Origin: a virus
IMG/VR virus record: IMGVR_UViG_3300005582_000088
Location: 1-25,780 of that record
DNA: 25,780 nt
Strand: one strand, 5' to 3'
Shown here: positions 7,038 to 15,042 of the stretch, one piece after another
How positions within the stretch are numbered: position 1 is the first letter of the stretch
How the letters are laid out: every line of letters starts with the position of its first letter
The notes under the pieces: model-generated
What the model was told of the DNA's origin: nothing
Database searches by the model: none
The model's input: the letters and a program-made list of their open reading frames with translations, nothing else
Made by a program: the position numbers and the translations under genes

Positions 7038-7301
7038 TTATTTCTTTTTATAATAAATAGCACTGTATCTGCCCTTTTCATTTCTGTACACACCACAAGA
7101 TCCTTTGCCATTTACCATGTAACCATTATAGGTTGTGCAAAAGTTTGTAGAGTAATAACCACGATCATCTGTTTTATAATTATAGATATAGTCATCTCCT
7201 TTAGTAATCTTTAGAACCTTCGCAATCATTTCTGTGTATCTGAAATCATTTCCATTAGCAAGCATGTGATCGACAAGTTTTTCTTTTACAGTCTTCTTCA
7301 T
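7038..7301 (-). CDS. Conserved-looking small phage protein
   Basis: 87 residues: a helical N-terminus (KEKLVDHMLANGNDFRYTEM) followed by an aromatic, Gly-rich part with two Cys, YYSTNFCTTYNGYMVNGKGS then CGVYRNEKGRYSAIYYKKK. The NGYMVNGxGxCGxYxNxKGRYSA pattern resembles small proteins I have seen in other Bacteroidetes phages, with no function attached. Very basic C-terminus. A winged-helix or nucleic-acid-binding role would be guesswork. Confidence 0.65.
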   Translation of the reverse strand: MKKTVKEKLVDHMLANGNDFRYTEMIAKVLKITKGDDYIYNYKTDDRGYYSTNFCTTYNGYMVNGKGSCGVYRNEKGRYSAIYYKKK

Positions 7302-7317
7302 TTTATTTACGTATTTA

Positions 7318-7486
7318 TTTTATTGGCTAAGTTGGAAAATTCCCCGGTGTGCAGGGCCGGTCAACGCGGGGCTCCCTGCTAGGGGCCCCCTATCTACCAT
7401 AACTAGGTCTTTGCCATGGTGCTAGTTGGATGCTAAAGAGCAGAAGCAAGGCACTAGCTGTCTGCTAGTACCCCGCCCCGAGACTC
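7318..7486 (-). ncRNA. GC-rich structured RNA candidate downstream of DUF932 gene
   Basis: About 170 nt without an ORF, clearly richer in G+C than the surrounding AT-rich DNA. On the - strand GGTACTAGC-AGACA-GCTAGTGCC (7472-7450) is a 9-bp hairpin with one G-U pair. AACTAG/CTAGTT (7427-7422 with 7406-7401) closes a second arm, and GCAGGG/CCCTGC (7379-7374 with 7356-7351) a third. CGGGGC at 7480-7475 can pair with GCCCCG at 7372-7367 inside the third arm's loop, a possible pseudoknot. GGGGCCCC at 7389-7382 is self-complementary. It lies immediately after the DUF932 stop, so it would be part of that transcript. No U-run follows, so it is not a simple terminator. It matches no RNA class I recognise. 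Confidence 0.5.
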
Positions 7487-8299
7487 TTAGTTAGCGTAAG
7501 CATCGGCTAGCTGCCATAGGCCTTGGTTCAGTACAAAATCCTCTATGGGATTCTTAATGGCCCTAGCTTGCCTATTGTTTAGTTGGAAGCCACCTTTGAT
7601 AAGGTTCTCTTGTACAGTATTGAATGTGTGCCATAGAGTAGGTTGTTCATCTACCTTACGCTTAGCATTGAGGATATCCATTACCTCGTACTGTTCTGGC
7701 TGACGATCTGAACTTAATCTCAGGGCTAATGCTTCTACAGCAAACTGATATCTTTCTTTATCAGTCATTTCTTTCTGAGCCCATTGACTGATCTTGCCTA
7801 CAACATCTTTGAGGCCTAAGACCTTTTGATCCATAAGATCCTTAAGCTCTTGGAAGGTGTACTTAGTGTGGCGCTCTCTAAAGGAGCCCATGTCTTGGTC
7901 CTTGATTACCAATCCATTCTCACAGACAAGCCTAAACATGCCCATCTCGAATTGAATCGGCCTTGTGCCGTCATGAGAGTTGATGAGTACAACCTCAGGC
8001 CTTGCTTCGATCTCACCCTGTGGGTTCTTGATGTAGAGGTCAGGGTGTTGAAACCTAGTAATGTGAATGCCCCAGTTCTTACGAAGCTCAACATTGGACT
8101 TAGACTGCTTAACTCCTGTGAGAGCGTAACCCATATCTTGCATGTGCTCGATAACCTCAAACGTAGGAGTGAACTGATACTTAGGGCTCTTGATTGTAGG
8201 AGCCGGGCTTGTAGCGAAGATTGCAGGTGCAAGATCCTTAGCAGTTTCGAGAGAGATAGAAGTGATAACGTTGTTCTTAAAATTTGTTGCTTTTGACAT
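7487..8299 (-). CDS. DUF932 family phage/plasmid-like protein
   Basis: 270 residues. The core NVELRKNWGIHITRFQHPDL, followed by FEMGMFRLVCENGLVI and a helical C-terminal half, is the DUF932 pattern (FRxxCxNG with preceding H/R-rich strands). Family proteins occur on plasmids and phages, often near replication and recombination genes; no reaction has been assigned to them that I know. It has its own promoter motif at 8326-8348, the leader AAAATAAAGGTTATG, and higher G+C than adjacent genes. The GC-rich RNA candidate follows its stop directly. Confidence 0.85.
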   Translation of the reverse strand: MSKATNFKNNVITSISLETAKDLAPAIFATSPAPTIKSPKYQFTPTFEVIEHMQDMGYALTGVKQSKSNVELRKNWGIHITRFQHPDLYIKNPQGEIEARPEVVLINSHDGTRPIQFEMGMFRLVCENGLVIKDQDMGSFRERHTKYTFQELKDLMDQKVLGLKDVVGKISQWAQKEMTDKERYQFAVEALALRLSSDRQPEQYEVMDILNAKRKVDEQPTLWHTFNTVQENLIKGGFQLNNRQARAIKNPIEDFVLNQGLWQLADAYAN

Positions 8300-8325: not shown

Positions 8326-8348
8326 GTAAATATAAGACTTTTATTTGA
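8326..8348 (-). promoter_or_regulatory. Candidate promoter, TCAAATAA-N6-TATATTTAC
   Basis: TATATTTAC at 8334-8326 with TCAAATAA a few bases upstream, ending 27 nt before the DUF932 start. The same arrangement recurs before other leftward units in this window. Confidence 0.55.
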
Positions 8349-8371: not shown

Positions 8372-8569
8372 TTAGCCTTCCGTCCTCTCTACCATCTGGA
8401 GTAGGTACTCGACGTCCATGTACTCTTCACTATAGACTTTAACCATATTCTTTGCCCTAGTGTCCCTGTCCTCTTCAAACAGTCTGATCATCTGATCGAT
8501 TCTGTGAAGCCTGGTGTGGAGGGCATCTGAAAGGAGGGCGTGTTGCTTCTGTGTAAATTCGAGTGTCAT
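8372..8569 (-). CDS. Hypothetical helical protein (65 aa)
   Basis: 65 residues, almost all helix: LHTRLHRIDQMIRLFEEDRD and MDVEYLLQMVERTEG. It looks like a short coiled coil with many His/Arg/Glu residues. It has its own promoter motif at 8592-8615 and sits between two other single-gene units with similar promoters. No family recognised. Confidence 0.6.
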   Translation of the reverse strand: MTLEFTQKQHALLSDALHTRLHRIDQMIRLFEEDRDTRAKNMVKVYSEEYMDVEYLLQMVERTEG

Positions 8570-13178: not shown

Positions 13179-13193
13179 AACTTTTATTTTTTG

Positions 13194-13286
13194 TAGTCAG
13201 GACAGGATTCGAACCTGTATGAGAGATAACCATTCCTTTATTCTCTCTATCTGTTAATTAGCGTCTACCAATTCCGCCACCTGACT
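13194..13286 (-). tRNA. tRNA-Leu-like gene with irregular anticodon arm
   Basis: The acceptor arms AGTCAGG and CCTGACT are perfectly complementary. The D arm reads GCG-GAATTGGTAGA-CGC and the T arm ACAGG-TTCGAAT-CCTGT, both canonical. The GGTGGCGGAATTGGTAGACGC part is strongly leucine-type, and a 6-bp GAGAGA/TCTCTC stem could be the long variable arm. The expected anticodon stem does not form: after the D arm, TAATTAACAGATA contains T-TAA (anticodon UAA) but the flanks do not pair. Total 92 nt, about 7 longer than a usual tRNA-Leu. CCA is not encoded. It lies between two - strand genes, in their transcript. tRNA identity strong, function doubtful. Confidence 0.75.
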
Positions 13287-14100: not shown

Positions 14101-15042
14101 TTACTTATAAGATTCTACCTTTCTCAGTCCTGAATAGTGGCAGAGGTTTTCACTCTCTCTAATTTTTAAGAGCGTAAGCTCTTTTGCTTTAGCTTCTATC
14201 ATGACGTCTGCTTGTACACCGTACAGGTTAGGTAGGGCGTTTACATAATCAGAATGAGCCTGAGGTTTTATCTTATTATCAGATTCATGTAAAGCCTTGG
14301 ATTCTGAATAGTGTACTACAGGTTTGATTCCTTCTGGCCAAGTAGAAGCGGCAAGCCTAAGTGCATCCTCTTCTGACATAGGGTCCTTCTGACACTTATG
14401 ATGGTGATAATCAAACACTATAGGGATTTTGATTCTCTCATGTAGGAACATAAGATCCTTAACTGTATAAAGAGATTCCTTATCATCATTCTCTATAGTA
14501 AGCCTAGATCTTACAGACCGGCTAATCCTTGTAAAGTTCTCAACGAACCTCTGTAAGCATGCTGTCTTGTCTCCATGTGTACCACCCATATGAATGTTGA
14601 TCTTATTATAAGGAGTTCTAGAAAGGCCCATAAGATCCATAACCTTACCATGTAGTTCAAGGTCTTTGATGCCGTCTTCTACTACTTTATTTTTTGGACT
14701 ACTAAGAGTGGTGAATGGACCCGGATGCATACTTAGTCTTATGTTATGAAACTTAGCAAAGTTTCCAGCTTTTTTAAGTTCTTTTGCAATCTTCTTGTAG
14801 TCAGGTAGTGTCTCTAGATCAATAGTATTGCCCCAAGGTATCATGTCGCTACTCATCCTAAAGAATGATATTCCGTTCTGCCTGTTCCACTCTAAAATAT
14901 AGATAAGGTCTGATACGTTTTGAAGAGCCAATTGAGATTGATACCCAATCCCCTTTTGGTCTAGAGTGGCCTTACGCATAGTTCTATTAGTGGTTCTTCC
15001 AGGTAGTGACATACAAATACAAGCATAACCAAGATTATTCAT
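14101..15042 (-). CDS. uvsE: UV damage endonuclease UvsE (UVDE)
   Basis: 313 residues, normal family length. Conserved features: FFRMSSDMIPWG (60-71), SMHPGPFT (104-111), INIHMGGTHGDK (148-159), LTIENDD (181-187), IVFDYHHHK (208-216), VVHYSES (242-248), QAHSDY (261-266) and DVMIEAKAKE (279-288). Candidate metal ligands H106, H151, E184, D211, H214, H244, H263 and E283 are all present. UVDE cuts 5' of UV photoproducts and other lesions, starting an excision repair route independent of UvrABC. A phage copy would repair sunlight damage to its own genome, which fits an aquatic or surface habitat (inference). Leader AAATAAAAGTTATG. G+C somewhat above the neighbours. Confidence 0.93.
   Translation of the reverse strand: MNNLGYACICMSLPGRTTNRTMRKATLDQKGIGYQSQLALQNVSDLIYILEWNRQNGISFFRMSSDMIPWGNTIDLETLPDYKKIAKELKKAGNFAKFHNIRLSMHPGPFTTLSSPKNKVVEDGIKDLELHGKVMDLMGLSRTPYNKINIHMGGTHGDKTACLQRFVENFTRISRSVRSRLTIENDDKESLYTVKDLMFLHERIKIPIVFDYHHHKCQKDPMSEEDALRLAASTWPEGIKPVVHYSESKALHESDNKIKPQAHSDYVNALPNLYGVQADVMIEAKAKELTLLKIRESENLCHYSGLRKVESYK

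Follow-up and report, generated by a model that had tools for sequence, protein, structure and literature searches.

The stretch of minus strand that fills the gap between the stop of a DUF932 gene at 7487 and the next same-strand gene, which begins at 7301 (ATG 7299-7301), is a real and conserved element of ~150 nt, present in 24 distinct IMG/VR sequences, every time just 3' of a DUF932 gene, and described in no catalogue searched here. The sequence analysed, hereafter the window, is the whole 25,780-base IMG/VR virus record IMGVR_UViG_3300005582_000088. We tentatively read the element as an iteron-type cis-control region linked to DUF932, whose transcribed edge would form a hairpin in the 3'-UTR (probability about 0.45). 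This is the simplest account of the RNA-type and the DNA-type evidence together; computation supplies for it the conservation of the element, its linkage to DUF932, its single copy, the pairing of the hairpins P1 and P3, and the helical spacing of its motifs. Coordinates are collected in Table 1.

Table 1. Features of the element and its neighbourhood, in positions of the window.
Feature	Positions	Strand	Basis or remark
DUF932 gene	7487..8299	(-)	Pfam PF06067, 105 bits; constant neighbour of the element
P1 hairpin, 16 bp	7443..7479	(-)	MFE and covariation; begins 8 nt after the DUF932 stop codon
Left part of the RYTAGYR lattice	7422..7468	(-)	YTAG at 7468, 7457, 7436, 7425 (spacing 11, 21, 11)
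Conserved core, 36 nt, YTAGCRYCnnGSCAAAGnnnTAnTTnTnGTAGAYAG	7390..7425	(-)	alignment A4
P3 hairpin, UAGGG/CCCUA	7379..7393 (pairing 7380-7392)	(-)	covariation; built from two lattice sites
GC box CACACCGGGGAATTTTCC	7334..7351	(-)	conserved in alignment A4; possible upstream promoter element
Promoter-like TAAATACGTAAATA	7304..7317	(-)	just before the ATG of the next gene

Portal, major head and terminase families found together in one 162-kb record assign these uncultured phages, whose hosts are presumed to be Bacteroidota, to the T4-like myoviruses. The DUF932 gene is single-copy in each phage record searched, and the small genes on either side of it make up a repertoire that changes between phages, so that DUF932 and the element, with its promoter-like end, form the constant unit of the locus. 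The first 160 nt after DUF932 have a GC content of 57%, against 35% for the locus, which bears out the GC-rich non-coding stretch in AT-rich DNA that had been noticed by a sequence-only reading of the window. A protein-coding interpretation was considered, as the frame KxLIVVDRG... looks protein-like, yet it was dropped because an in-frame TAG lies just upstream in every homologue read and the position of the downstream stop shifts; on this check, made by eye on homologous sequences and with no script, the element is judged to have no coding capacity. In L161 (7083-7454, minus strand) a GTG-started frame extends without a stop from the core into the following gene, and an annotation pipeline could call it as a false N-terminal extension. 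No tRNA or tmRNA was found in the element, only unrelated tRNAs; a tRNA-Leu (CAG) lies at 13193-13286 of the window. The window of this T4-like phage also contains a DNA repair gene, that of the UV endonuclease UvdE, at 14101-15042 (PF03851, 228 bits) and, at ~505-790, a low-complexity threonine/serine-rich stretch (TTTTSTTTT) within an ORF running off the end of the sequence.

The linkage to DUF932 is strict. Among the many relatives found by searching with DUF932, the element immediately follows the stop codon in those at least 56% identical to the reference protein, and those at ~36% identity or less are without it; the same holds for Flavobacterium phage immuto (DUF932 36-41% identical), in which no element was found and the next gene overlaps the DUF932 stop codon. 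The core, searched as DNA regardless of DUF932, returned the same loci together with one extra DUF932 locus (L170) and chance matches; scanning 84,980 bacterial and archaeal genomes for the core gave chance matches only, and the INPHARED isolate phages gave no DNA match. Outside the DUF932 context, the element was found neither by pattern scans of viral and genome collections nor by a covariance model. The latter detected a single copy per record, both in 19 phage records and in G001, G002, G003 and G006, and no copy in immuto or at loci whose DUF932 genes are distant; since the searched sequences include those used to build the model, these results speak for single copy and not for independent discovery. 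Rfam 15 at the gathering score yielded no match in the window, 14 homologous loci gave only tRNAs away from the element, and permissive scans of four homologues (E up to 5) gave matches at chance level. Regarding conservation, the core has a mean identity of 74%, compared with 41% at the fourfold-degenerate sites of DUF932, and is the higher of the two in all 136 homologue pairs (136/136); selection at the nucleotide level therefore maintains the element.

Part of the evidence is of the RNA type. In P1, which is further closed by an outer helix (7483-7486 with 7438-7441), 94.3% of cells are paired among 16 distinct homologues, against 30-51% for slid partners, and covariation in the same set reaches 0.521 vs 0.397 in shuffled alignments (0/500). 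With bulged bases excluded by hand, 40 G-U cells contrast with only 2 A-C cells; the four YTAG positions could produce a similar bias through C/T variation on one side, but setting them aside as well still leaves about 30 vs 2. An excess of this kind is what one expects if the sequence is read as RNA in the DUF932 sense. The 5' part of the element has a mean z of -3.40 over 22 homologues. Covariation and G-U bias thus point to P1 being transcribed, and it is probably the messenger-end structure of the DUF932 transcript.

Taken as a whole, the minus strand (that of the DUF932 transcript) folds better than shuffled sequences (z -2.18) and the plus strand does not (z +1.06); the DUF932-sense strand is the better folder in 18 of 22 homologues. 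P3 also covaries (0.412 vs 0.287 shuffled, 0/500), with 86.7% of its cells paired. The core taken as a whole shows no stability above shuffles (mean z +0.28, 22 homologues), and a weak pairing signal between its columns 27-30 and 70-73 appeared in one scan. Of the three hairpins proposed from the sequence alone, the first arm corresponds to P1 and is strong and covarying, while the middle arm varies among homologues and finds no support; the self-complementary GGGGCCCC hairpin holds only in its shorter UAGGG/CCCUA form (P3). A proposed pseudoknot is not conserved, only 60% of its cells being paired across 14 homologues. The suggestion of a structured RNA of no described class stands for the RNA part, which covaries and has no Rfam counterpart at the gathering score; because covarying pairs, the check that had been proposed for it, do exist in P1 and P3, the absence of covariation cannot be held against that suggestion.

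In this sense, a serious possibility is that the whole stretch acts as RNA, either as the DUF932 3'-UTR or as an RNA processed from the DUF932 messenger; a protein, possibly DUF932 itself, would bind the YUAGC motifs and P1, affecting messenger stability or acting in trans. The covariation of P1 with its G-U excess, that of P3, the better folding of the sense strand and the strict linkage to DUF932 all argue for it. The element resembles in this respect the structured RNAs of phages and metagenomes in Rfam, which are also conserved intergenic hairpins with compensatory changes; it differs from them in matching no model, and in having a core conserved in sequence rather than in structure. Against such an RNA stand the lack of extra stability in the core, the spacing of the motifs, and two natural variants, both described below.

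The RYTAGYR motif, counted as YTAG, is found 92 times among the 1509 nt that make up the homologous 5' parts, where shuffles have a mean of ~11, and 44 YTAG pairs are spaced 10-11 nt, against 9 expected under random placement. Eight copies spaced 11, 11, 10, 11, 10, 11 and 11 are found in L074, and a missing copy usually leaves a spacing of 21, with the phase mostly kept. In an exploratory period analysis, conceived after the spacing had been seen and with statistics inflated by the non-independence of the homologues, the positions of all TAG sites in 23 homologues, counted from the motif immediately preceding the core, gave a best period of 10.5 (R 0.546), compared with 0.343 at 11.0 and a null maximum of 0.236. 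The helical repeat of B-DNA is ~10.5 bp. At a period of 10.5, TA steps fall in phase, with the G+C runs in antiphase; the TA phasing at the element is the genome maximum in G003 but falls only within the top 7% of windows in G001. The reference element has its main TAG sites at -43, -32, -11, 0, +32 and +43, the last two being ATAG at 7393 and CTAG at 7382 in P3, and out-of-phase sites at +19 and +28. By these positions, the two arms of each hairpin, P1 and P3, fall on adjacent lattice sites and, as the RYTAGYR motif is near-palindromic, some of the hairpin pairing comes free. Evenly spaced short direct repeats, and their being kept at the same place after DUF932 in 24 distinct sequences, are two features that this array shares with iteron arrays of the T4 oriE type.

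The two variants, known from one sequence each, bear on how far the array depends on the transcript. L079 (IMGVR_UViG_3300005805_001950) carries at ~630-675 a canonical terminator, GGGGGAGCC-UUCG-GGUUCCCC followed by a U run, between the DUF932 stop and the array; L013 lacks, immediately downstream of its DUF932 stop, the 5' arm of P1. Both retain lattice and core, so the array and core can be maintained in the absence of P1, or where they are probably separated from DUF932 transcription. A purely RNA-based explanation, as advanced by the sequence-only reading, does not account for a motif spacing that follows the DNA helical repeat or for the core kept in L013 and L079, and no result here speaks for the decoy RNA suggested along with it. 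The cis-control reading, on the other hand, is suggested by a core of strong sequence conservation and no excess stability; a pure DNA-binding array would not be expected to show the G-U bias seen in P1 or compensatory change in P3, and the covariation of P1 on its own would suit an RNA element.

The 3' end of the element contains a plausible candidate phage promoter. Across homologues, a TATAWWTAC-like sequence lies ~18 nt after the GC box and is followed by a start codon; the enrichment of TATAWWTAC was tested for some variants only. Upstream of genes, ATATTTA ranks first or second among the enriched 7-mers in the four records G001, G002, G003 and G006 (7-12 fold), and it is this enrichment that makes a promoter at the 3' end of the element plausible. 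Similar sequences occur elsewhere. Both L068 and L079 have a second copy of the GC box (CCGGGGAATTTT-like) further downstream, before another AT-rich promoter-like site; in L068 the second copy precedes TATAAATAC. Within the window, TATATTTAC is found at 8326-8334 (minus strand) upstream of DUF932, and AGTCTTATATTTAC also before the gene at 8372-8569; TATATTTAC/AGTCTTATATTTAC is probably the common promoter of the phage.

Under the cis-control reading, we infer that the RYTAGYR motifs, which face the same side of the DNA helix, and the core are most likely the joint target of a protein from phage or host, so that array and core would be bound as DNA rather than as RNA. The resulting nucleoprotein complex would form just upstream of the promoter-like sequence, and its output may be in transcription or in replication: it would either control the promoter or open the DNA for replication, as iteron arrays do. 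The DUF932 messenger would enter the array, and its 3' end would fold into P1.

A special case of the cis-control reading, unlikely as it stands, is an iteron-type replication origin, in which an initiator would bind the phased repeats, the AT-rich end would open, and a transcript or primase would start replication. The model is T4 oriE, which has evenly spaced 12-nt repeats of undefined role, lies near a promoter and is conserved between related phages (PMC3016281). The element likewise has evenly spaced short direct repeats near a promoter-like site, belongs to a T4-like phage (by its portal, major head and terminase families) and is kept in relatives; its AT-rich end and single copy also fit. 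It differs from oriE in its repeat (10-11 nt and TAG-centred, vs 12 nt), in containing a covarying transcript hairpin, and in being linked to DUF932 and not to repEA/repEB, and is a candidate origin only. A coding-strand switch located ~3.3 kb from the element in the window and in G001 could be taken in favor of an origin; however, this switch is convergent, none is found near the element in G002 or G003, the GC skew has no turning point at the element, and no recognised replication gene lies beside it. A more elaborate version would be a transcript-assisted T4-like origin, with the phased array binding the initiator, the DUF932 transcript folding P1, its G-rich continuation staying paired to the DNA as primer, and DUF932 as partner; we hold this to be very improbable, and we know of no origin type combining iterons and RNA described for T4-like phages.

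It is improbable, too, that the element is a degenerate transcription terminator or a protective 3' hairpin and nothing more. P1, which comes immediately after the stop codon, has a strong GC-rich stem, and no terminator-like stem in the scanned part of the window is longer; in L079 the corresponding position is occupied by a canonical terminator. Nevertheless, no U run directly follows the P1 stem, whose tail is TGCTCTTTAG, while the same phage seems to use canonical intrinsic terminators elsewhere in the window (13719-13696 and 4224-4201, minus strand, with tails TTTTTT and TTTTTA). Furthermore, unlike an intrinsic terminator, the stem sits within a phased array of repeats, and the conserved lattice and core would be left unexplained. 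The protective 3' structure once proposed for the region may apply to P1, but not beyond it.

The least probable reading, a strong gyrase-type or other DNA-wrapping site in which phased TA steps and GC stretches would wrap the DNA round a topoisomerase, fits the layout, in which ~47 bp of lattice are followed by a 32-bp gap and then by further lattice, with TA and GC in antiphase, but has no need of an invariant TAG or of covarying hairpins. The gyrase motif spans 130 bp, with a 36-bp centre, two 47-bp flanks and a 10.75-bp GC periodicity (PMC6379681). The strong gyrase site of phage Mu and the E. coli gyrase motif share with the element a length of ~130 bp, helically phased AT and GC, and one occurrence per genome; the element departs from them by its sequence-specific TAG motifs and covarying hairpins, and by a periodic GC score that is inconsistent between members. 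By this crude score, flank GC periodicity is in the top 0.03-0.8% of locus positions in six members and ordinary in others (high in L010, L007 and L079, ordinary in L003, L013 and L076), the annotated Mu gyrase site itself being in the top 2.6%. T4 oriE and the gyrase motif are the closest known designs to the element.

As for DUF932 itself, a good AlphaFold2 model (pLDDT 88.6) gave no significant PDB fold match, no solved relative was found, and the papers naming DUF932 yielded no function. The modelled fold, three strands followed by a long helix, may recall single-strand annealing proteins, which is only a lead; RAD52 is among the fold matches only insignificantly (E 0.44). With the element, this family without known function gains a conserved nucleic-acid neighbour for binding tests, one that has no Rfam entry and is kept down to 56% DUF932 identity while the genes on both sides turn over. 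If the element were an origin, it would also bear on the question of what the iterons of T4 oriE do.
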